Shown here: piece by piece, positions 7,941 through 34,465 of the stretch
Layout of the letters: each line of letters starts with the position of its first letter
How positions within the stretch are numbered: position 1 is the stretch's first letter
Source of the DNA: Haladaptatus sp. R4
Lineage (GTDB): Archaea; Halobacteriota; Halobacteria; Halobacteriales; Haladaptataceae
Assembly (NCBI RefSeq): GCF_001625445.1
Contig: NZ_LWHG01000031.1
Coordinates: forward strand, 124,001-188,000
Direction: 5' to 3'
DNA length: 64,000 nt
Translations under genes and position numbers: made by a program
The notes under the pieces: generated by a model
Told to the model about the DNA's origin: nothing
What the model saw: the letters and a program-made list of their open reading frames with translations, nothing else
Database searches by the model: none

Positions 7941-9358
7941 TCAGTCGTCCAATCGCGGCGTTCCTGTCAATATCCCTTGAAGGTCCTCCATCGGTTCGCC
8001 GACTCTGACGCCGTTTTCCGTTATCTCGAACTCGCGGAGGAGGTGCTCGTAGTCGCTGGTTCGCTTTTTCAACACGCTGATAGATTTTCGCATCTCGCCG
8101 GAAACTTCGAGGTGTTGGAGGAGAACGATGTTGTCCGCGAGGTAGCTGATTCCCTTCCCGGTCGCCTTGACCTGCCCCGTCATCGAGTCGTGTTCCGAGA
8201 CGAGGATGACCGTGATACCGTTGTTCTTGAGATATCGACAGAGTGCCTGTAACCGCTCGACGAGGTTCTGTCGCTCGTCACGCAGGGAGAGGGTGTACCC
8301 CTCGATGCCGTCGATCATTACGATGTCCGTCTCGTTGGTTTCGACCTCGCGGCGGACCATATCGACGAACTCGACGGCCGAGCGCTTGACCGGTTCGACC
8401 TCCACGAGATGAAGTCGCCCTTCGTCTTGCATCTCGGCGACGGGAACGTTGATGGCCCTGCTTCGTTCACGAAACGTTTCGGTCGACTCCTCGAACATGT
8501 AGATGACCGACCGCTTGCCGCGGCCCGCCGCTTCCTTCATGAACTGCGTCCCGAACGTCGTCTTTCCGACGCCGGTCGGCCCGCTGAGGACCGTGACCGT
8601 CCCCCGCTCGATGCCACCGTCGAGTAGCTGATCCACTTGGGGAATCCCGGACGAGAGTTGAACGGGGTTGAAATCGCGGTCGTGAACCGTGGGGTCGAGC
8701 GCGGGGAACACGGCGATGCCGTCGTCCGAAATTCGCATCCCGTGTCGTCCCTTTCGCACGTTTTTCGGGAACTTCGGCACGAGGAGCGTTCGTGTTCGGT
8801 CGGTGCGCTGGAGTTCGATTCGGCGTCGTCCACGACGGACAGGTCGTCGTTGAGTGCTGTACGGCCGGTAAACAGCACCGTCGTACCGTCCTCCTTTAGA
8901 TATCGTGCGAGACCGATGACTTCCTCCCGAAACCGTTCCCGACTCGAAAGGAGGTCACGGAGCCGAGTCGAAGAATCGACGACGACTCTGTCGGGCGAGA
9001 GCGAGTCGATTCGGTCGGCGAGGCGACCGACGAGTTCGTCGTCGTCGGCGTTCCCAGCGAACGTGTCCCGCTGCCCGCCGCTTTCGGCCTGTTCGGCGCG
9101 TAAATCGAGGAACGAAAGGGCGTCCGCATCGATATCGACCGCGTTCGCCTTCTCGCGGAGTTCGTCCGCCGTCTCGGAGCAATGGACGAACAGCCCCGTT
9201 TGGTCCCGCTCGGTTCCCGCTTCGAGAAAACGCAACCCGAGCACGGTCTTTCCCGTGCCTGCTTCGCCGTGGAGGACGTACGACCGGTTCGGAACCAGTC
9301 CACCGTTCAGCACGATGTCGAATCCGCGAACGCCGGTCGATTGTCGTTCGACAGCCAT
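7941..9358 (-). pseudogene. Two-domain KaiC/RadA-like ATPase, interrupted by a frameshift
   Basis: The first part (from the ATG at 9358) is a KaiC-type RecA fold with Walker A GEAGTGKTVL near residue 32. After VVDDAE, about 180 residues in, the frame becomes nonsense. The expected continuation (IELQRTDRTRTLLVPKF) appears in the next frame at about 8815-8824 and runs to 7941 as a second KaiC domain. That domain has Walker A GPTGVGKTTF, the paired glutamates of YMFEES and Walker B IVMIDGIEG. One missing base near 8822 would restore a protein of about 470 residues, the usual double-KaiC length. Such ATPases act as haloarchaeal signalling proteins. A GTG at 8780 could also start the second half alone. 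Confidence 0.85.
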
Positions 9359-10394: not shown

Positions 10395-11384
10395 ATGGGT
10401 TCACCGGGTACAGTCCGACTACTGAGCGCCCTTCGAGAGGGCACGCTCGACGAAATTCGACCGGTACTTGACATCGAGACGGGGACGGTCACCTACCCCG
10501 ACGCGGACGAGTATCTCGACGACTACGACGGAGATACCTTCGAGGTGCTAGAAACGCTGTCCGAACGCGACCTCCTTCACCGCGAGTTTCAGGAGAAACA
10601 GTACATCTGTCCTCGCTGTGAATCGAAGGGGATGCAGTACACGACGGCGTGTCCGTCCTGTGAGTCGCCGAACACGATCCGAACGGACAGCTATCGCCAT
10701 CCCGAGTGTGGCTACGAGGGGATGCGGGAGCAGTTCGTCGGCGAGAATGCCGTCGTCTGTCCGAACTGCGAGACCGAACTCGATTCGCTGAAACACCTCG
10801 AATCGGATGCGGCACACGTCTGTGAGGACTGTGGCGACGTGTTCGAAAAGCCCGTCAACCGCCTTCGATGCCGCGACTGCCATCACGTCGCCGACCCGCT
10901 CCAAACCATCGAGCGGGTGCTGTACCGGTACTTCTTGAGCGAAGACGGAGCCACGTGGGTGGACGAACAACTCGCCGCGCGGCAGGCCCTCGCGGAAGCG
11001 TTCGAGGACAGGAAACTCCGAACGGAGATCGACAGTACCGTCACCGACGCGTCGGATGAAGAGGTTCCGGTCCACGTCTACGCACGCGATGACCTATTGA
11101 ACGACCACGTCATCGGCGCGGTTTACGAACGTCCCGACGGGGACGACATTTCGGCGCTCAGAACCCTCGCCTCGGGTGCTGGCGCACGCGCGACGCTCGT
11201 CACCACGTCCGGGACCATCGTCGGGAACGACGCCGGAACGCTCCTCACGGACGGCGACCTGACGGTGCTCCGGTTGACGGGGGACGGGACGCTGGAACGC
11301 GAGTACGAGGTGGTCGAAGGAACGCATCCGAACAACTCGTTCGTCGGCCGTCTCGCCGACATCTTCAAACCGCAGAACGGGTAA
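10395..11384 (+). CDS. Multi-zinc-ribbon protein, TackOD1-like
   Basis: A 329-residue soluble protein. Residues 70-170 carry four Cys-pair modules (CPRC, CPSC, CPNC, CEDCG, then CRDCHH), consistent with two or three zinc ribbons. The N-terminal 65 residues are a small alpha/beta domain. The C-terminal 130 residues form a second domain with no clear motif. The layout fits the metal-binding TackOD1 (archaeal output domain) proteins of haloarchaea, which are thought to act at the end of signalling chains. An AT-rich TATA-like element (gattaaatag) lies about 30 bases before the ATG. Confidence 0.6.
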   Translation: MGSPGTVRLLSALREGTLDEIRPVLDIETGTVTYPDADEYLDDYDGDTFEVLETLSERDLLHREFQEKQYICPRCESKGMQYTTACPSCESPNTIRTDSYRHPECGYEGMREQFVGENAVVCPNCETELDSLKHLESDAAHVCEDCGDVFEKPVNRLRCRDCHHVADPLQTIERVLYRYFLSEDGATWVDEQLAARQALAEAFEDRKLRTEIDSTVTDASDEEVPVHVYARDDLLNDHVIGAVYERPDGDDISALRTLASGAGARATLVTTSGTIVGNDAGTLLTDGDLTVLRLTGDGTLEREYEVVEGTHPNNSFVGRLADIFKPQNG

Positions 11385-11405
11385 ACTGTTGCCGAAAACG
11401 GGCGG

Positions 11406-13148
11406 TCAGAATTCCGTCACCGAGGGAATAGCTGCCCGCCCCAACAGCGATCCGTCGTCCGTTCCGCCGGTTCCGTTCTTCACCGCCGTTCCTATCGTGG
11501 AGATACCGCCCGCGTCAGTACCGTTGCTGGCGTTTTCACTGACAGCCGACGTATTTTGGACGGCATCCGTCGTGCTATCAGTGGTCGTCGTGAGACGATC
11601 CACCGTCTTTTCCACGCCGCCTGAAACATCATCCGACGTGTTCTTGACACCACCTGCGACCCCATTTGACGTGTTCTCGATACCGTCGCCAACCCTCTTG
11701 GTCGTCTCGTCTACCGTCCCAGTGGTTTTTCCCGTGCTGTCGTCCACCGTGCTCGTCGTCGTATCGACGCCGTCCGTGATCTTCCCTGTGGTATCGTCCA
11801 CATCATCCGTGGCTTTGTCAGTCGTTCTATCGACCGTCTCCGTCGTCGCGTCCACGCCATTCGTGATCGTATCGGCACTCCCGTCCGCTTTGTCTGCCGT
11901 CCTATCCACTCGATCCGTGATGTTGTTCGTGGTGTCGTTCACCTCATCGGTGAGCCCATTCGTGGTATTATTGACCGGATCCGCCGTCTCATTGACCTCG
12001 TCCGTGAGTTTATCCGTCGTGTCGTCGATCGAGCCCGTCGTGTTATCCACGCCATCCGTGATCCTGTCCGTGGTGTTATCGACGCCGTCCGTGACTTTGT
12101 CAGTCGTGTTATCCACCGTGTCCGTGGTATCGTCCACTCCGTCCGTCGTGTTATTCACTCCGTCTAAGACTTTTTTCGTCGTGTCGTCGACCCTATCCGT
12201 GGTGTTATCGACACGGTCCGTGACTTTGTCAGTCGTATCTTCGATCGTATCAGTCGTATTGTCCGCGCTGTCCGTGGTGTCGTCCACCGTGTCCGTCGTA
12301 TTGTCCACCCCGTCCGTGATTTTATCAGTCGTATTGTCGACCTCGTCCGTCGTGTTATTCACACCGTCTGAGACCTTTCTCGTCGTATCGTCCACGCCAT
12401 CGGTGACGTTCCCGGTGGTGTCGTGTACGCGGTCAGCGACATCGTCACGAGTTTCGTTCATCCCGTCCGTGACGTTATCGACTCCGTTTCCGACTGTGTT
12501 CTTCGTCTCGTTGACCTCGTTTTCTGGGTTGTTGTCCTCACCGCTTCCCTCGGTGGTGTCGTTCACGATGGTCCCCACTCGGTGAGTCGCGTCGCCGGGT
12601 GCAACCGTTCGATTCTCGTTTGCACCCGAGTTCGGTCCAGTGCCCGCGTCGTCGTTCCCGTCATTCGCTCGGTCTCCCCCCGTCAGTAGGGAACGGAATT
12701 GGCGGCCGATCCGCTTCGGGACGTCGAACGTTATCGAGTCGGCCGTCGCCCGTTCGAACCGCATGTTCGCCCCTCGAAGGTTCGTCTTCTTCAACACCGC
12801 ATCGTGAAACGCCATTCTGATGCCCGCATCGCCCCCAGTGGGCTTCACCTCTAGACAGACCGATTCGGCGTGTATCCGTTCGACTCGAACGCTAAGCGCT
12901 GTGTCGTTCGTCCGCGGACCATCACCGAGATTTCCGGCCATCGCCTCCTCGACGTCGAGACCGTGAGCGTTCTGCCGGTAGGCAGGGAAGTTCACGGTCC
13001 GAAACGTTACGTTCTGGAAGCAGCGTTTCGCATCCGAGAACGACTGTTGGGCGGATACACCCGACGTTTCACGGTGTGTACCCGCCGCCGGAGATACCGA
13101 AGCGATCACGAGACAAAGGATAACCACGAGGATGGTTCGGTGTTTCAT
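11406..13148 (-). CDS. Secreted or surface protein with a long Asn-Thr-Thr / Asp repeat domain
   Basis: A 580-residue protein in three parts. Residues 1-23 are a Sec-type signal peptide. Residues 35-150 form a globular domain with two Cys and beta-rich stretches (RVERIHAESVCLEV, LRGANMRFERATADSITFDVP). From about residue 195 to 480, near-repeats of seven and eleven residues follow, such as VDNTTDK and VDNTTDKVTDG. The protein holds about 30 N-x-S/T sequons, so it may be heavily N-glycosylated outside the cell. The 11-residue periodicity recalls LEA-type helical repeats. No C-terminal anchor is visible. It follows an HTH-10 regulator on the same strand. Confidence 0.75.
   Translation of the reverse strand: MKHRTILVVILCLVIASVSPAAGTHRETSGVSAQQSFSDAKRCFQNVTFRTVNFPAYRQNAHGLDVEEAMAGNLGDGPRTNDTALSVRVERIHAESVCLEVKPTGGDAGIRMAFHDAVLKKTNLRGANMRFERATADSITFDVPKRIGRQFRSLLTGGDRANDGNDDAGTGPNSGANENRTVAPGDATHRVGTIVNDTTEGSGEDNNPENEVNETKNTVGNGVDNVTDGMNETRDDVADRVHDTTGNVTDGVDDTTRKVSDGVNNTTDEVDNTTDKITDGVDNTTDTVDDTTDSADNTTDTIEDTTDKVTDRVDNTTDRVDDTTKKVLDGVNNTTDGVDDTTDTVDNTTDKVTDGVDNTTDRITDGVDNTTGSIDDTTDKLTDEVNETADPVNNTTNGLTDEVNDTTNNITDRVDRTADKADGSADTITNGVDATTETVDRTTDKATDDVDDTTGKITDGVDTTTSTVDDSTGKTTGTVDETTKRVGDGIENTSNGVAGGVKNTSDDVSGGVEKTVDRLTTTTDSTTDAVQNTSAVSENASNGTDAGGISTIGTAVKNGTGGTDDGSLLGRAAIPSVTEF
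11700..12540 (-). repeat. Degenerate coding repeat (7- and 11-codon units)
   Basis: The DNA repeats a unit based on gtggataacacgacggac with slips of four codons, giving peptides VDNTTDx and VDNTTDKVTDG over more than 25 cycles. Synonymous changes are scattered between units, which points to old, selected repeats rather than a recent expansion. Confidence 0.75.
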
Positions 13149-13255
13149 CGAATATCACTACCTTCTATGATTATTCCTACCATGCGACCGCAGAGGAATA
13201 TTTATTCCCGCATCCATGCACGGTTATTTATATCCCGTCGAATCTTCGTTGGACG

Positions 13256-13918
13256 TCATTCCTGGTGGCCGAAAAGGGTCGAAAAGAGGTGATACTCCGC
13301 CTTTCGGAGGTGTTCGTCCACGGTGCTCGGCGCACAGCCGAGTCGTTCCGCGATGTCCGCATGTGTCGCTCGTCGTGGGCTCTGGTAGTGACCTTGTTTG
13401 ACGGCGGTTTCGAGCACCTCGTGTTGCCGATCGGTCAACCCCGAAAAGAGGTGGTCGGAATCCGGCGCATACTCCCCCGTCTGTTCGACACGGACGTCGA
13501 TTTGCTTCGGTAGCTCGCGGAACGCCCGTTGTATCATCTCCTGCTTGCCGACGACGGTGGCGAGGATGTCGTTGGAGTCGGTGTACGTGAGCGGCGTATC
13601 GATGATGAGTGCATACTTCTCGACGACGTACATGAGCGTTCCCGCTGGCTCACCCGCTTCGACGTGTATGTAGATGTGAAACAGATCATCTTGCACGTCG
13701 AGTATATCGTAAGCCAAGACCGACTCGTGTGCATCCAACTCCTCGACGAGCCCGTTCGAGCTCCCACGCAGTCGATAGAGAAGCACACCGCCACCGCTGA
13801 AGAGGGAGTTGACGTGGAGGAGTTGATCCCGTTGGACGTCGGGCCGTGCAGCGATAACGTCGCCGACTGGATGGATTCCTTTCCCGTCCAGGACTAATTT
13901 GAGGGTTAGATATCTCAT
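13256..13918 (-). CDS. HTH-10 (bacterio-opsin activator type) transcription regulator
   Basis: A 220-residue protein from the Met of MRYLTLKLVLDG, the usual beginning of this family; in-frame ATGs at 13921 and 13936 are alternatives. The N-terminal 150 residues form the sensor-like domain. The C-terminus holds the HTH-10 domain, which opens GLTDRQHEVLETAVKQGHY and has the recognition segment ADIAERLGCAPSTVDEHLRKAE. It precedes the repeat-protein gene by 107 bases and sits between it and the DUF6114/DUF6230 pair, so it is a plausible local regulator. Confidence 0.85.
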   Translation of the reverse strand: MRYLTLKLVLDGKGIHPVGDVIAARPDVQRDQLLHVNSLFSGGGVLLYRLRGSSNGLVEELDAHESVLAYDILDVQDDLFHIYIHVEAGEPAGTLMYVVEKYALIIDTPLTYTDSNDILATVVGKQEMIQRAFRELPKQIDVRVEQTGEYAPDSDHLFSGLTDRQHEVLETAVKQGHYQSPRRATHADIAERLGCAPSTVDEHLRKAEYHLFSTLFGHQE

Positions 13919-14024
13919 CATCTTCGATTCTATCACGCACTCGTTCTCGAAACGTACATAATTATTTGTTGTCTAAATTGAAGGTTCGGCAATAGGACTC
14001 GCCCAAAATGGAACTCTCCGACGA

Positions 14025-14438
14025 TTACATCGTCGGTATTGTTTCTTCGGTGTCGGTGTCGGTGGTCTCAGGTGGTTCCCACGCGACACAGAGCGCACCG
14101 CCGAGCGTGCCGAGTATCATCCCCACGCCGAACCCTCCGAGCGCCCCGAAGATCGAGGCGATCGAAAGCAGGATGCCAGCGGCACCGAAGAACTCGGCGA
14201 ACTCCGGGCGCAGTAGAGCGAAGACACCGCTCAAGAAGACGAAGACTGCGAACACTAATCCCGCAAACATGAATGTGCTCGGAACCAGCGCGAAGGTTAT
14301 CGCCAGTTGTGCGGGAATGATCCCGATGACGAGTCCGGCGAGGATGACGAGGAGTGCACCCCAGAACGGCCGGTCGTGGCGCCACGACGCGAACCTCGAC
14401 CGGTACGATGCGAACTGCGTTATGTGAATTGAACTCAT
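14025..14438 (-). CDS. DUF6114 membrane protein
   Basis: The 137-residue protein has four membrane helices after the motif WRHDRPFWGALLVILAG, and a last helix (FGVGMILGTLGGALCVAWEPPE) that ends in the family's conserved AW-P. These features match DUF6114, known mainly from Streptomyces, where it is found beside DUF6230. Here it begins 24 bases after the DUF6230 stop on the same strand. The function of the pair is unknown; an envelope role is inference. Confidence 0.8.
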   Translation of the reverse strand: MSSIHITQFASYRSRFASWRHDRPFWGALLVILAGLVIGIIPAQLAITFALVPSTFMFAGLVFAVFVFLSGVFALLRPEFAEFFGAAGILLSIASIFGALGGFGVGMILGTLGGALCVAWEPPETTDTDTEETIPTM

Positions 14439-14462
14439 ATCGTGTGCCTCCGTTCGATCGGA

Positions 14463-15068
14463 TCAGTTTCCTCCCGCCGCACACTGGCTCTTCGGGAAGC
14501 TAGTGGTGTTTTTCGGGTTCACGACGGTCTTCACGTGTGCTCCGGAGAGCGTGATGCTCTGTAGGAATTGGCTTTGTGCTTTGATCCTCCCGTCATCGAT
14601 GACGATGGTCGGCGCCGAGAGCGAGAACGAACTCTTCATGCTGTTGGGGTCGGACAGCGTCTTCTGGTTCTCCATCTTGAGGTTCCCCTGTAGATAGGTG
14701 AACTTCTGTGTCATTCCACTGAATTTCACCGTCTTGTCCGAGGAAATCATGAGACGGACGGTGGTACCACCGCCGGGCATTCCCTTCGGGATTTCAACGT
14801 CCTTATACATTTTCAACCCCTTGATCGATCCTCGGTTGATTTTTGCAACCGCCGATGGGTACGTTCCGCACTCGCTCGAATTTTCGAGCGATGCGTACTG
14901 CGTGAACCCTTGACCCTCCAGTTGGTCGAACGTGACGGTGAATCCACCCACACCTGCTGTGGGCACTGCGATGGCTGTTCCTCCAGTCGCGATAGCGCCG
15001 ACAGTGGCGGCTTGTAGCACCAACGCTGCACCGATCACGATCGCGAACTTTTTGGTATTGATTGCCAT
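14463..15068 (-). CDS. DUF6230 exported protein
   Basis: A 201-residue protein with an N-terminal hydrophobic segment (residues 9-30, AIVIGAALVLQAATVGAIA). It then has a beta-rich domain with FTVTFDQLEGQGFTQYASL and LKMYKDVEIP, the core pattern of DUF6230. Two Cys (in SSECGTY and SQCAAG) could form a disulfide. It is the first gene of a pair with DUF6114, and the AT-rich region upstream holds a likely promoter (ttaatgtattaaat on the minus strand). The family is chiefly actinobacterial, so the pair may have been exchanged between domains. Confidence 0.8.
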   Translation of the reverse strand: MAINTKKFAIVIGAALVLQAATVGAIATGGTAIAVPTAGVGGFTVTFDQLEGQGFTQYASLENSSECGTYPSAVAKINRGSIKGLKMYKDVEIPKGMPGGGTTVRLMISSDKTVKFSGMTQKFTYLQGNLKMENQKTLSDPNSMKSSFSLSAPTIVIDDGRIKAQSQFLQSITLSGAHVKTVVNPKNTTSFPKSQCAAGGN

Positions 15069-15287
15069 ACCCGTACAAAGATAATTTAATACATTAAGGA
15101 TTGGCGCGGTTTTACACGGCGATATACAAGGGGGTGGATTTTAATTCAAAATATTACTATAAATTTTATATGGTATTAAAAATATACCGATACTACTCCC
15201 CGGGCGATCGACTTCGTTGTAGCACGGGAAAAGCGAACTGCAAATCGATGGGCGAGCGGTCACCGACGAGTACCGGTGAACCGTTCG
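15069..15287. promoter_or_regulatory. AT-rich intergenic region upstream of DUF6230
   Basis: There is no convincing gene. The stretch at 15080-15190 is markedly AT-rich. It contains the likely promoter of the DUF6230-DUF6114 pair (minus strand) and the 3' end of the malate synthase transcript. Confidence 0.45.
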
Positions 15288-16589
15288 TCAGCCGACCTGC
15301 ATCGCGCGTTCGACCACGTTCTCGCCGTACAGTTCCGCCAACGCATCGTGCTGGTCCGGCCGGTTCTCGTACACGTCCTGGAACACGGCGATCGGCGTCA
15401 TCGCGGCTTGGTACGTGGCTTCGTCCCACATCCGGTCGTTCTCGATGTCGATCTCGACGCCGTCGATGACGACGGTCGTCGCCTGCGTCATGGCGATGGC
15501 ACCCCTCCCCGCTTCCTTCGCGGCTTCGAACTCCTCCATCGAATCGACGATGTCGTCCATGCTCGGGACGTATTCGGTCATGTCCAGCAGTTCTTCGCGG
15601 AGTTCGTCCCCGTCGAGTTCCCGCTCGTCGTCGCCGACCCGAAGGCGATAGCCGTCGCCCGTCTCCGACAGTCCGACTCGATTTCCGTCGTAAAACTGTG
15701 TGTCGTCCTCCCGTTCGAGTTCGGTTCGTTGGCCGTCAACGTCGAGCAGCCATCTGCCGGTTTCCGGCGGCAAGGGTGCCTCGTTCGCCGTCACGACTTG
15801 GCCGGGGGTCAGCGACCAGATGCCGATCATTCCCTTGGCCCGGTTGGCGGTCATGCGCTCGCGGTAGCCGTCCACGTCCCGGATGTCGTCGTACGGGCCG
15901 TCGACCGCGATGAGTCCGGCGGCGCTCGCACCGCGCGACGTGTTGTGGCGCAGTTCCTCCCACTCCGGGAGGCCGCCGGTCGGCGTCATCGCGCGCATAT
16001 CCTTGGTGTAATCGACCTCGCCGTCCACGAGCATGAACAGGCGTTCGAGGTTGTTGTCCGGCTTTCCTATCTCCTCGCGGAGGTCGCCCATCGCCAATTC
16101 CGCCGCCCCGCTCTCGATGATGACGGACATGGCGAGACTGCCCTCTTCGAGGCCGTGTTCGTTCTCGACGAGGGTTATGAACTCGTCGGCCTTCTTCCAG
16201 TCGTCGATGCCGCCCACTTCGGGAACCACGAACCCGTCGATGTGTTCGATGGCTCCCCGCTCGGGGTCGGCGATCTGCAGTATGTGCTGGAATCCCCGAT
16301 AACGGGTTCCGGGGGCGTCCCGGTGCCAGACGATACGAGGGTGGATTTCGCCCGGGAACTCCTCCCCGTGCTCGGCCACCACTTCGACGATGTTCTTGGC
16401 ACCCTCGTCGCGCATCGACGGGGCCGTCGCGTCCTCGTTGTCCGGGACCCAAACGTCGGGGGCCTGCATCCCGCGTAACTGTGCTGCGCTCCGTAGCATC
16501 TTGGCGGAGTCGTCTTCCCCCTCGACCGCCGTTGGCGAGGTGAAGAACGTCCGCACGAACGCTCGTTCGTGTCGTCGTTCCGTGGTCAT
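15288..16589 (-). CDS. aceB: Malate synthase, haloarchaeal type
   Basis: A 433-residue enzyme of the glyoxylate shunt that condenses acetyl-CoA and glyoxylate to malate. It is much shorter than bacterial AceB or GlcB, as is usual for the distinct haloarchaeal malate synthase. Visible elements are VWVPDNEDATAPSMRDEGA, a Glu/Asp-rich metal-site region (FVVPEVGGIDDWKKADE) and VIIESGAAELAMGDLREE. The ATG at 16589 is one base beyond the isocitrate lyase stop, so both come from one transcript. The codons upstream lose coding character, which rules out a longer start. Confidence 0.93.
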   Translation of the reverse strand: MTTERRHERAFVRTFFTSPTAVEGEDDSAKMLRSAAQLRGMQAPDVWVPDNEDATAPSMRDEGAKNIVEVVAEHGEEFPGEIHPRIVWHRDAPGTRYRGFQHILQIADPERGAIEHIDGFVVPEVGGIDDWKKADEFITLVENEHGLEEGSLAMSVIIESGAAELAMGDLREEIGKPDNNLERLFMLVDGEVDYTKDMRAMTPTGGLPEWEELRHNTSRGASAAGLIAVDGPYDDIRDVDGYRERMTANRAKGMIGIWSLTPGQVVTANEAPLPPETGRWLLDVDGQRTELEREDDTQFYDGNRVGLSETGDGYRLRVGDDERELDGDELREELLDMTEYVPSMDDIVDSMEEFEAAKEAGRGAIAMTQATTVVIDGVEIDIENDRMWDEATYQAAMTPIAVFQDVYENRPDQHDALAELYGENVVERAMQVG

Positions 16590-16590
16590 A

Positions 16591-17649
16591 TCAGTCGTCT
16601 CCCTGCTCGGAAGCGACCACCTCTTCGTCATCCTCCGAGTTAGAGGTGATGGGGGTCGATTCGTCCTCGCTGAACCCTTCCGAACCCTCGATTCGCTCGC
16701 GGGCCTCCGGGTCGAACTGCGTCTCGATGTCCTGATACCGACTGACGAACGAGAGTTCGTGGTGCGATTCCGTAGGGTGGTCGAGGTATCTGCCTTCGAG
16801 GTCGAACTGCGCCTGCTCGTCGTCCTCGGCGAGTCGTTCGAAGTCCTCGTAGACGCTGTGTGCACCCGAATGGAGCGCGAACAGCGTGATGAAGATGTAC
16901 TTGTAGCCGAGGTCTCCCAGTTCCTCGAAGGTGAGCGGGTCGTCCTCCTCCGACCACGCGAACGACGAGGAGTAGTTGAACGCGAGTTTCAGATCGGGAT
17001 GGGTCTCGTGGATGGTTTCGGCGTACTCGACCGCGTCCTCTCGACTCGGGTCGGGCATCTCGGGCCACACGATATCGACGCCCGCGTCGGCATAGATGCG
17101 GCCGCGTTCGAGGTGTTCCTCCCAGTCGCCGTTCGCCGACCCGTAGGCGTCGGTTCGGGCGATGATGACGGTGTCCTCGGATTGCTTCGCATCGACGGCG
17201 GCCTCGAAGCGGGCGCGGGCTTTCTCGCGGGAGACGATTTGCTTGCCCGCGATGTGGCCACAGCGTTTCGGCGTCGTCTGGTCCTCGATGTGGATGGCGG
17301 CGACACCGGCCTTTTCGTACTCGCGCACGGCCCGCCGGACGTTGTGGATGCCGCCGTAGCCCGTGTCACAGTCGGCGATAACGGGGAGGTTGGTGGCTTC
17401 GACGATGCGTTTCGCGTTCTCGACCATCTCGGTCATCGTCACCATCTCCAAGTCCGGGAAGCCGAACTGGCCGAGCACGGTCGAATAGCCGCTCATGTAC
17501 GCGGCGTCGAGTCCGGCCATTTCCGCCAGTCGGGCGTCGAGGGCGTGATAGAGTCCGGGTGCGAAGACGTAGTTCTGGTCGTTCAGCATCTCTCGGAGTT
17601 CCTTTCCGGCGCGATTCTCGATGTCTCTCGTCGGTGTTTCGGGTTTCAT
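16591..17649 (-). CDS. aceA: Isocitrate lyase
   Basis: A 352-residue enzyme that splits isocitrate into glyoxylate and succinate. The substrate and metal residues are visible: the [12 protein letters not shown] strand, [12 protein letters not shown] with the catalytic KRCGH motif, and TDAYGS. The next gene downstream is malate synthase, so the complete glyoxylate shunt is encoded here for growth on acetate or fatty acids. The ATG overlaps the stop of a small upstream gene by ATGA. The acidic tail ([17 protein letters not shown]) is typical of halophiles. Confidence 0.95.
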
Positions 17650-30481: not shown

Positions 30482-31168
30482 ATGAGTACGATCGTTGAAT
30501 TCACCCTACCGACGGACGAGTTCGTCCTCGCCGAGACGTTCCGTGCGGTTCCATCCGCCACGTTCGAAATCATCCGATTGGTGGCACACGACGTAGACCG
30601 CGCGTTTCCGTACCTCTGGGTGTCGAACAACGATATGGAAACCGTCGACGAGGCGCTCGCCACCGACCCGAGCACGGAGAACCTGGAACTGGTGTCCACG
30701 TTCGACGGGACGAGCCTGTATCGGATGGACTGGATCGACGCCATCGAAGTCATGATTCAAATCCTCGTTGAAGAAGACGGTGCGATCCTCAACGCCAACG
30801 GGACGAACGAGCGCTGGAAGATGCGGGCGCTGTTTCCGGACAGGGACGCGTTCTCACGCACGCACGACCATTGCAAGGAGCGGGAACTGACGATGACGAT
30901 CGACCGCATCTACCCGCTCACCGATTTTCCGCACGGTCAGTTCGGTTTGACGAAAGAACAGTATGCGGTGTTGGCCCTCGCCACGAAACGCGGGTATTTC
31001 GACGTTCCACGTACCAGTTCGATGGCCGACCTCGCGGACGAACTCGGCATCAGCCAACAGGCGGTGTCGGAGCGGCTTCGGCGCGCCCACGACACGTTAG
31101 TCCGTGGGGCGCTCGCGGTCGGTCCGGAGATCACGACAGAGCCGGAAATCGGTCGGTCGAGACGTTAG
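30482..31168 (+). CDS. HTH-10 transcription regulator, copy A
   Basis: A 228-residue protein with an N-terminal bacterio-opsin-activator sensor domain (MSTIVEFTLPTDEFVLAETF) and a C-terminal HTH-10 (ADLADELGISQQAVSERLRRAHDTL). It has no receiver or PAS domain, so the sensing is within the N-domain. It overlaps the end of its convergent paralogue (31165-31800) by four bases. The two proteins share the N-terminal VxxPxxxFxLxETFxxVP pattern, which shows a duplication followed by inversion. Confidence 0.85.
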   Translation: MSTIVEFTLPTDEFVLAETFRAVPSATFEIIRLVAHDVDRAFPYLWVSNNDMETVDEALATDPSTENLELVSTFDGTSLYRMDWIDAIEVMIQILVEEDGAILNANGTNERWKMRALFPDRDAFSRTHDHCKERELTMTIDRIYPLTDFPHGQFGLTKEQYAVLALATKRGYFDVPRTSSMADLADELGISQQAVSERLRRAHDTLVRGALAVGPEITTEPEIGRSRR

Positions 31169-31800
31169 ATCGGGATCGAATTCCCGATGAGTTGGTCGTG
31201 TGCACGTCGGATCCGCTCCGACACTGCCTGGTGTGAAACCCCGATTCTGTCGGCCAGTTCGCCGACCGTGATCCCGCGTGGAATGTCGTAGTAACCGTGC
31301 TCGAACGCCAGTTGCAACACTTCCAACTGCTCTTCGCTGAAGTCGATCTGCTCCCCGGAAACGCCGTCCAGTTGCTGAAGCCGCCGAATCTCCATCGAGA
31401 TACCACGGTCAGTACACCGATGATACAGCCTCGATGCCATCTCTCGGGTGGTGGTTCGGAGCCGAAACGTCCAGTGCTGTTTCGTGCCGGAGACCTGACT
31501 GATGACGACATCGTCTTCGAGAATCGTCTCGAAGACGGACCGCGGCGTCGATGTCCAGTTGACGGCAAAGAGCGTCGAATGCGAGTTCGAGACGATCGTT
31601 TTCACCGAAGTGAGGGTCGGATCCGTTCGGAGCACGTCGGCGACGTCTCGGTCGCTTTTCACGCGGATGAGCGGCGGGCCTGTTTCGGATCGATACGAGA
31701 TCGTGGGAAGGAGTTCGAACCGGGCCTCCGGGACCGATACGAACGTCTCTTCCAGGGCGAAGTCCGCGACGGGAACCGCCACTTCGACGAGCGTGTTCAT
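31165..31800 (-). CDS. HTH-10 transcription regulator, copy B
   Basis: A 211-residue paralogue of copy A. Its N-domain starts MNTLVEVAVPVADFALEETF, and the C-terminal helix pair is GELADRIGVSHQAVSERIRRAHDQL. The two genes are tail to tail with a four-base overlap, so their transcripts may interfere. The start at 31800 faces a PAS-containing regulator across 146 bases. Confidence 0.85.
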   Translation of the reverse strand: MNTLVEVAVPVADFALEETFVSVPEARFELLPTISYRSETGPPLIRVKSDRDVADVLRTDPTLTSVKTIVSNSHSTLFAVNWTSTPRSVFETILEDDVVISQVSGTKQHWTFRLRTTTREMASRLYHRCTDRGISMEIRRLQQLDGVSGEQIDFSEEQLEVLQLAFEHGYYDIPRGITVGELADRIGVSHQAVSERIRRAHDQLIGNSIPI

Positions 31801-31946
31801 GTGGAGTAACGTCCAGCCAGCACCCAGTGGCTTTCACTCGTATATACAAGTCATTTATATCCCCATCAGTAGGCGTATTCCAACGACCGATCGGTCCGAT
31901 TTCGAGCAAAAGTCTATTAGCCCTTCTACCCGTGCGTAGCCCAACG
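31801..31946. promoter_or_regulatory. Divergent promoter between two HTH-10 regulators
   Basis: The 146-base spacer is AT-richer than the flanks (tatacaagtcatttatat at 31841-31859) and should hold promoters for both the copy B regulator (minus) and the PAS-GAF-HTH-10 gene (plus). Confidence 0.5.
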
Positions 31947-34465
31947 ATGTCTGAACCGTTCCGTTCGGACGATAGCGCTTCGGCAACCACCTCACTCGTC
32001 GAAACGGAAGCGGGGGAGGAAGCCGCCTTTTTCAAGCATATCGTCGAGACGCGCTCGATGCGGTGGTGACGGTATCCGGAGACGGGACCATCCTGTTCGC
32101 AAACGAGGCTGCCGGTCGAATGTTCGGCTACGACGTGGACACGCTCCTCGGAGAGTCGATACGGATGCTGTTTCCGGAACGCTACCGCCAAGAGTATTTT
32201 GCGGAGTTCCGTGAGCAAGTCGAGGATGCCGACACGTCCACCGAATACACCGGCCTCGAACGAATCGGAGTCCGCCGGACCGGCGAGGAGTTTTCCATGT
32301 CGTTTTCCTTCCGTCGGCACCGATATCACGACCGGACGCTGTTTACCACGACACTGCGCGATATCACCGACAGAAAGCGTCAGCAGAACGAACTCGAAAC
32401 CGCGACCGAGAAGTATCGAACGCTGGTCGAGGCCGCACCCGACGCGATCTTCCTCGCCGACGTAGAGACGGGAGAGATCCTGGAAGCGAACCGAGCGGCC
32501 GCCGAACTCCTCGACCGACCGATAGAGGAACTCGTCGGAATGCACCAGTCCGATCTCCATCCGGAAGGGGAGTTGGAGCGATACAAGAACCTCTTCGGTC
32601 GAAGACACGAACTCGACGAATCGATCCCCGACGATCACAACATGTCCGTGATCGATTCGAACGGGAATCGAATCCCCATCGACATCAACTCGACCAGTAC
32701 CGAACTGAACGGTCGCCGGGTCGCACAGGGGATCTTTCACGACATCAGCAACCGGAAACGACGTGAAGAAGCCCTCAGTTCGCTTCACGAGACGACACAC
32801 GAGATGCTCGGAACGTCGTCGCCCAAACTCATCTGCCAGCACGCAGTGGAAACTGCCGTCGACGTGCTCGACCTGCCCGCTTCCGGTATCTATCTCCATT
32901 CGGAAGACGGGGACGTACTCGAACCCGAGGTGCTGACCGACACGGTCGAGGAGTTGTTGAACGACGCGGTGCCGACGTACGCGCTCGACGACAACCTCGT
33001 CGGAACGGTCTTCGAGACGGGTGAACCGCGGGTTATCTCCGACTTCCAGACGACGCCGAACGTGGCACAGCGGGATACGCCGATGCGAAGCGCCATCATT
33101 ACACCGTTAGGCGAACACGGAGTGTTCATCACGGCGTCCCCGTCGCCGCGGGATTTCGACCGAATCGACTTCGACCTGATGCGTGTGCTGGCGGCGAACA
33201 CCGAAGCCGCCTTGACCCGCGCGGGACGCGAGCGCGACGTCGCCCGCCAGCGCGACGAGTTGACGACGCTGAACCGGATCAACGCCATCGTTCGGGATAT
33301 CAACCAAGCGCTCGTGGCCGCACCGTCACGCGAAGAGATCGAACGAACCGTCTGCGAGCGACTGGCCGCTTCGGATGCTTATCACGGTGCGTTCATCGCT
33401 ATGGGGTCGTCTACCGAAGAAGGGATGTTCGTCCAAACGGCCGCCGGAATCGACGACGACTATCTAGACGCGATGCCGGAGAACACCGCGGAGAGCGGAC
33501 AGGGACCCGCCGCACTCGCGCTTCGGACAGGGGAACTCCAGATCGTGGAAGACGTGAAGTCGGATCCCTTATTCCCGCCGTCCCTTCGGAGTGCTGCGCT
33601 CGACCAAGGATACAACGCTGCAGCCTACATTCCGATCGTCTATGGGGAGACCACGTACGGGGTATTGACCCTCTATACCGACGATCCGGCCGTCGTGGGC
33701 GAGCGCGAGCGGGACGTTTTCAGCGAGTTGGGGGAAACCATCGGTCACGCCATCAACGCGGTCGAAAGCAAGCGACTCCTCTACTCAGATCGTGTCGTCG
33801 AACTCGAATTCTCGCTCACGAACACGGAGTCGTTTTTCGTCACGACGTCCGACGAGTTGGAGTGTTCGCTCGACCTCGATGGGGTGGTTCCGTCGAGCGA
33901 CGGCACGTACATCTTCTACGTTACCGCGAGCGGCGTTTCGCCGGAGCGGATACTCGAACGGGCGTCCGAATCATCTGTCGTCGAACGTGCTCGCCTCGTT
34001 CAAGAACGGGACGAGGAAGCCATGCTGGAGGTCGCGTTTCACCGTACGGCGACGATCGCGCAAGCGCTCATCGAACGCGGCGCGTACGTCCAGCGCGGGT
34101 CGATAACGGACGGTGAGGGAAGCATCGTCGTCGAAGTGCCGGGGAACACCCGCATCCGTCCGTTCTTGGACGCAGTCGAGTCGGTGTACTCCGAAGGGAA
34201 CCTGCTCTCGAAGCAGTCCCGCGAGCGACCGTTTCACTCGACGTCCGGCTTTTATCACGAACTCAGCGAGACGCTCACCGAGCGACAGGCGGAAATTCTC
34301 CACGCAGCGTATCTCGCGGGATACTTCGACTATCCCCGTGCGAGTTCCGGCAAGGAGTTGGCCGAAACGCTGGACATCTCCTCACCGACGTTCCATCAAC
34401 ACCTCCAAGCGGCCGAGCGGAAGTTCCTCACGCTGCTGTTCGCGGGACAGTCAGGTATCGTCTGA
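31947..34465 (+). pseudogene. PAS-PAS-GAF-GAF HTH-10 sensor-regulator, frame broken near the start
   Basis: The gene starts MSEPFRSDDSASAT at 31947. After about 35 residues (EEAAFF) the frame fails. The rest continues in another frame (from about 32053: ALDAVVTVSGDGTILFANEAA) to 34465. A missing base near 32053 would restore about 839 residues. Domain order: PAS (residues about 35-150), PAS (160-270), GAF (275-390), GAF (410-560), the bacterio-opsin-activator domain (580-760), then HTH-10 (LTERQAEILHAAYLAGYF). It is a cytoplasmic one-component sensor with possible light, redox or ligand input. If the break is real, translation could restart at GTG 32063. Confidence 0.8.

Follow-up and report, generated by a model that had tools for sequence, protein, structure and literature searches.

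What do DUF6230 and DUF6114, two orphan protein families that are common in Streptomyces, do side by side in the genome of a haloarchaeon? A stretch of 64,000 nucleotides from Haladaptatus sp. R4 (assembly GCF_001625445.1, contig NZ_LWHG01000031.1, positions 124,001-188,000 of the forward strand), which we call the window and whose numbering is used below, carries one gene of each family together with the genes for an HTH-10 regulator and for a long exported repeat protein, referred to here as the stalk protein. The original prediction, made from the letters of this stretch, was that the four genes may form an undescribed envelope system with transfer between the domains of life. Our analysis points to a core of three parts. 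We put at about one in two the probability that the locus is the haloarchaeal version of a three-part module, in which DUF6114 would be a membrane platform, DUF6230 would be docked on it, and the stalk protein would project outward from the cell.

The four genes lie at the predicted places, all on the minus strand, and their Pfam scores are well above the curated cut-offs. The DUF6230 protein (14463..15068, 201 residues) matches PF19741 with 43 bits (cut-off 27.5, E = 7.3e-11) over profile positions 5-138 of 145. Directly after it, with a gap of 24 bp, comes the DUF6114 membrane protein (14025..14438, 137 residues), which matches the whole of PF19609 (positions 1-106 of 106) with 91 bits (cut-off 27.9, E = 9.3e-26); the same order is found in Streptomyces. 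A gap of 88 bp separates DUF6114 from the Bat-type regulator (13256..13936, 226 residues), in which HVO_0513_N scores 127.9 bits against a cut-off of 29.8 and HTH_10 scores 62.4 against 23.1. After a further 107 bp, an open reading frame (11406..13148) encodes the stalk protein of 580 residues.

The window DUF6230 protein has a single N-terminal hydrophobic segment at about residues 7-29, a signal or anchor by hydropathy, followed by an exported domain that is predicted to be all-beta. The AlphaFold2 model of the mature protein consists of strands with no helix, at a predicted local distance difference test score (pLDDT) of 78 and a predicted template modelling score (pTM) of 0.69; its alignment comprised the window and Streptomyces rows, of which one (L123) is aberrant. 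Fold searches with this model gave no significant match in the PDB (best Foldseek E = 0.025) and nothing significant in BFVD. Across the two domains of life, the DUF6230 alignment has only two invariant columns, F43 and I82. In profile-profile comparison, the profile of the Streptomyces proteins matches those of both main haloarchaeal types: type A (clade A), to which the window protein belongs, at 89%, and type B at 97%. The window DUF6114 protein, with about four transmembrane segments by hydropathy, is 31-32% identical to its Streptomyces counterparts, with 15 invariant columns and the motifs W..RPF and LGG...G......GG.

The stalk protein begins with a signal-type hydrophobic segment (residues 1-25) and has no further transmembrane segment by hydropathy. 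The alignment places a small N-domain, N1, at residues 37-160 (12669..13040, minus strand). The remainder (residues 171-580; 11406..12638, minus strand) is an acidic tail rich in Thr, Asp, Val, Gly, and Asn, in which hydrophobic residues recur at spacings of 11, 18, 29, and 7, the pattern of mixed hendecads and heptads. It holds 28 N-glycosylation sequons (N-x-S/T) in 410 residues, or 6.8 per 100. The DNA of the gene shows tandem repeats with periods of 21-150 bp, and the length of the protein varies among close relatives, from 580 residues in the window to 472 in the closest one. In Pfam, the tail matches ApoLp-III (64.7 bits, cut-off 36.3), YtxH (above its cut-off), phasin, senescence, and many unrelated helical families; Apolipoprotein, at 45.9 bits, falls below its cut-off of 90. 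The apolipoprotein, phasin, YtxH, and senescence matches are best read as likeness between amphipathic 11-residue repeats, more probably than as homology. An antisense open reading frame across the repeats (11389-12585, plus strand) was dropped as a mirror of the low complexity.

Is the neighborhood conserved? We surveyed 391 genomes of the haloarchaeal class, from 86 genera; in the loci collected from relatives, which bear L numbers below, gene starts are approximate because a simple gene caller was used. DUF6114 is present in 47 of the 391 genomes and in 16 of the 86 genera, and DUF6230 is found by Pfam in 25 genomes, all of which also have DUF6114, mostly as the adjacent gene. Divergent copies of DUF6230 escape Pfam; with a custom profile they are recovered next to DUF6114 at most of the remaining mapped loci. 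Type-A DUF6230 occurs in 11 genomes, and a search with the N1 profile matches the identical 11 of 391, always beside type-A DUF6230 (hypergeometric p about 1e-21, with relatedness ignored). At type-B loci, DUF6114 is often adjoined by a repeat protein with the same type of tail and a different N-domain, N2. The survey thus bore out a conserved neighborhood. Elsewhere in the class, DUF6230 domains head surface-type proteins. The long DUF6230-headed protein of L088 has five PKD repeats by Pfam, and that of L077 is probably similar; both stand in clusters with several DUF6114 copies. Two haloarchaea of family f11 that have small genomes (L091, L092) possess open frames of about 3,340 residues in which a DUF6230 domain comes first. 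Such proteins suggest that projections of other kinds can be mounted on this base.

Three further observations concern these loci. Six tandem DUF6230 paralogues stand beside one DUF6114 in L094 and L095, and the alternating DUF6230/DUF6114 clusters of actinobacterial L216-L218 are similar. A haloarchaeal multi-transmembrane protein of about 153 residues with no Pfam match (L063:11514-11972 and relatives) accompanies the module in 15 mapped loci. In L060 and L061, the module has gas-vesicle (gvp-like) genes a few positions away.

The regulator is distributed differently. Of the 11 type-A loci, 9 have a regulator of the window's subfamily next to the module, as do the 11 type-B loci in family f4 without exception; besides the window, 20 mapped DUF6230/DUF6114 loci have one. 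Such a regulator is absent beside most loci of f3, f8, and f11 and from actinobacteria. Its homologues occur in 316 of the 391 genomes, widely without DUF6114, and are unlinked at many DUF6114 loci, which rules the regulator out as an obligatory fourth part. It is a locally attached regulator and not a core part of the module. Of the proposed envelope system, then, the three membrane or exported parts are conserved together, which makes an undescribed envelope module a reasonable interpretation; the regulator is linked to them in some lineages and does not stand as a fourth core part. Three more HTH_10-type regulators, one of 800 residues, are clustered at 30482-34465 of the window; they are weakly similar to the regulator of the module.

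Does the pair keep similar company in actinobacteria? Of 297 genomes sampled from the class Actinomycetes, 61 contain DUF6230. The Streptomyces loci were gathered with an approximate DUF6114 probe sequence, and all loci analyzed are database records. The order DUF6230, DUF6114, and then a third exported protein is seen in the 56 gene-resolved loci, and by motif in most of 80; the genes downstream were interpreted as coding for pyruvate kinase, acetate kinase, and phosphate acetyltransferase. The third protein combines a signal segment with a linker of Ser, Pro, and Ala, an amphipathic segment (e.g., DTVKDTTSKAAKTVGDTVKNTTGTVSKTVDDAGKAV), and a C-terminal beta-domain. Amphipathic repeats of the DTV-x-DTT type are found in both domains of life, as DTVKDTTSKAAKTVGDTVKNTT in Streptomyces and DTVDDTTDTVNDTT in haloarchaea, with periods of 4, 7, and 11 in the Streptomyces segments and of 11, 18, 29, and 7 in the window tail.

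The beta-domain of the actinobacterial third protein is related to DUF6230 by profile comparison. The pooled DUF6230 profile matches it over 138 columns at 63% (E = 7e-5) with a score of 35.6, while the best of 38 unrelated families scores 16.9. The AlphaFold2 model of this domain from Streptomyces is a confident all-beta structure (pLDDT 91, pTM 0.82) with no significant fold match in the PDB (best Foldseek E = 0.09), and a sequence search of the PDB found no credible match for this domain, for DUF6230, or for DUF6114. Since neither DUF6230 nor the actinobacterial beta-domain has a match among solved structures, a structure may reveal a new fold. The DUF6230-like strand patterns that the original prediction had seen in the N-domain of the haloarchaeal stalk protein were not confirmed: with separate and pooled profiles, hhalign gave a probability of 2-14% and scores of 20-25, at or slightly above the 17.8-20 obtained with the best of the 38 unrelated families.

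Natural gene fusions also link the parts. Haloarchaeal single chains join DUF6114 to an exported domain in L079 (N2-type), L080, and L081, and the exported domain of L081 is DUF6230-like (151 columns, 90%, E = 1.6e-6). In divergent actinobacteria, DUF6114 and the third-protein beta-domain form one polypeptide in L222, L223, L226-L230, L232, and L234. In archaea and bacteria alike, then, DUF6114 has been joined to DUF6230-like domains. Because DUF6114 precedes the exported domain within the fused polypeptide, these fusions also bear on topology.

In the DUF6114 tree, the 38 haloarchaeal rows fall on one side and the 30 actinobacterial rows on the other (support 100/99), and no DUF6114 turned up in about 109 genomes sampled from other classes of the archaeal phylum. 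This distribution fits one ancient transfer between archaea and actinobacteria, in either direction. If the proposed cross-domain transfer took place, it was a single ancient event, and recent or repeated transfer is excluded among the sampled rows. Searches of IMG/VR with DUF6114 patterns gave no viral relative. Wide spread on plasmids was rejected, as one plasmid-sized record only was found (Natronococcus, 46% identity).

How might the parts work? We propose that DUF6114, with its four transmembrane segments, acts as a platform on which DUF6230, exported and tethered to the membrane through the hydrophobic segment at its N-terminus, would dock. The small domain of the stalk protein would dock beside DUF6230; this would be N1 in the window, N2 in other haloarchaea, and the DUF6230-like beta-domain in actinobacteria. 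From this putative complex of three parts, the long acidic amphipathic rod, with its 11- and 7-residue repeats, would project into the space between membrane and surface layer (S-layer) in haloarchaea, where it is rich in N-glycosylation sites, or between membrane and cell wall in Streptomyces. In the window genome, the adjacent HTH-10 regulator probably controls the module. The analysis shows the conserved linkage, the fusions, the export and transmembrane signals, the repeat periodicity, and the distribution across the two domains, whereas the physical complex, its docking and projection, and control by the regulator are inferred. The three non-regulatory proteins probably work together on the cell's exterior.

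Several points weigh against this model. The haloarchaeal N-domain scores against DUF6230 only at or just above the level of unrelated families, and the likeness of the repeats across domains may be convergent low complexity. The type-A loci L062, L065, and L070 lack an adjacent DUF6114, which these genomes carry elsewhere, so adjacency is not obligatory; L062 and L065 also lack an adjacent regulator. Finally, the sources searched gave no interaction, localization, or phenotype data for the module, and the literature search found no description of the system, with DUF6114 unmentioned and DUF6230 mentioned incidentally in one paper.

Could the four genes simply be unrelated neighbors? The orientation and order of the regulator and the stalk gene do vary by lineage, but the co-occurrence of N-domain with type-A DUF6230 (11/11) and of DUF6230 with DUF6114 (25/25), together with the fusions, contradicts this explanation for the three non-regulatory genes, and for the locus as a whole we regard it as scarcely credible; the case against chance comes from the comparative data and not from the window alone. 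An esterase function for DUF6230 is hardly more attractive. Older Streptomyces annotations make it a secreted cholesterol esterase, and SCO5420 is so named (PMC7494193), but no hydrolase family in Pfam matches the window protein, the predicted structure is all-beta and free of helix, and there is no conserved catalytic Ser or His, since F43 and I82 are the only invariant columns. We therefore find the esterase very improbable and the label of SCO5420 unsupported. A passive role deserves more weight. DUF6230 and DUF6114 might merely anchor assorted surface stalks for S-layer spacing or cell contact, with no substrate, as would suit the PKD arrays and the proteins of about 3,340 residues that have a DUF6230 domain at their base, the different stalk lengths of close relatives (580 and 472 residues), and the sequon-rich tail. 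Most DUF6230 proteins are themselves stalkless, however, and the domain is conserved without a projecting part, so we think such a spacer or adhesin unlikely, though worth keeping in view.

Another explanation starts from the genes around the module and the regulator. The module may bind or pass fatty acids or other hydrophobic substrates at the envelope and be induced with fatty-acid catabolism, with lipid held by the beta-domains and the apolipoprotein-like rod. In the window, an AT-rich gap of 219 bp upstream of DUF6230 (15069..15287, minus strand) probably bears the promoter (a scan for bacterial-type promoters is uninformative for archaea), and beyond it, on the same strand, is a glyoxylate-shunt stretch (15288..17649) with malate synthase aceB (15288-16469 scanned; NCBIfam malate_syn_AceB_Halo, E = 3e-233) and an isocitrate-lyase-like gene, aceA (16591-17649; ICL/PEP_mutase match). 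Unlinked orthologues of the regulator in the examined g32, g26, and g40 genomes adjoin acyl-CoA synthetase genes, and FadB-like and acyl-CoA dehydrogenase genes lie farther along in L237, L247, and L253; several other unlinked copies are not beside acyl-CoA synthetase genes. Among the collected loci, 13 of 15 acyl-CoA-ligase genes lie within two genes of this regulator, with a Fisher p of 2e-9 that ignores relatedness and the fact that loci were centered on the regulator, and that corresponds to about four independent lineages. In L083 (9732-12206, plus strand), DUF6114 and a long-chain acyl-CoA synthetase occupy a single open frame, and a member of the regulator subfamily adjoins it. Actinobacterial neighbors point the same way: a cholesterol-oxidase-like GMC gene is oriented divergently to DUF6230 in L226, L227, L232, and L234, where DUF6114 is fused to the third-protein domain, and a WS/DGAT gene is found in L231. 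In S. coelicolor, SCO5420, the DUF6230 gene by synteny with pyk2, was almost 37-fold up on Tween compared with glucose (PMC7494193). Release from glucose effects would explain that rise equally well, and a candidate orthologue in another Streptomyces, the "putative cholesterol esterase" SACTE_4612, is up on xylose and xylobiose (PMC12772271). Moreover, type-A loci of f4 stand beside translation genes and those of g60 beside gas-vesicle genes, and the PDB fold searches with DUF6230 and the actinobacterial domain gave no match to a lipid-binding fold. Because of these unrelated neighbors and the possible glucose effect, the link to fatty acids is kept as a rival. The context is suggestive, and the explanation is possible, if doubtful. 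A broader version, in which haloarchaea and actinobacteria share, through the one ancient transfer, a hitherto unrecognized envelope machine with a new beta-fold on a four-transmembrane platform that deals with fatty acids or other hydrophobic compounds at the surface and is co-regulated with fatty-acid catabolism, strikes us as speculative and rather improbable.

Two other neighbors in the window may be recorded. A gene for a 329-residue zinc-ribbon protein with a TackOD1 domain (thaumarchaeal output domain 1; 10395-11384, plus strand) is convergent with the stalk gene, 21 bp away. A two-domain KaiC-like gene (7941-9358, minus strand) is apparently in two overlapping frames (8537-9358 and 7941-8780), as a disrupting frameshift around position 8,780, or an error in the sequencing, would produce.

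With the core (platform, beta-domains, and stalk) now told apart from what is local (the regulator), two orphan families become one testable system, whose plan is seen again in archaea, where the wall differs. How does it compare with known systems? The regulator is clearly of the HVO_0513 type of HTH_10 (Bat-like) proteins, with both Pfam domains well above cut-off; several of its nearest orthologues stand beside acyl-CoA synthetase genes and not beside DUF6114, and the literature searched gave no regulon for any regulator of this type. The stalk tail shares its 11-residue hydrophobic periodicity with the amphipathic repeat proteins (apolipoprotein/ApoLp-III, phasin, YtxH, and GvpQ-like proteins), but, unlike them, the window protein is exported, rich in Thr, Asp, and sequons, and has a small domain in front. 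The envelope lipid-transfer systems Lpt, Mce, and Lol have the general plan of a membrane protein with exported beta-domains, and the module resembles them in this; it differs in having no ATPase among the four genes no PDB fold match for DUF6230 or the actinobacterial domain, and no credible sequence match for these or for DUF6114. The closest counterpart is the SCO5420-SCO5421 pair of Streptomyces, named by synteny with pyk2 (SCO5423), in which the two Pfam families stand in the order seen here, and which, like the haloarchaeal pair, is followed by a third exported protein with repeats. The haloarchaeal locus differs in its HTH-10 regulator, its N-glycosylation sequons, and its genomic neighbors, and in the build of the third protein, whose domain is N-terminal in the haloarchaeal stalk and C-terminal in Streptomyces.

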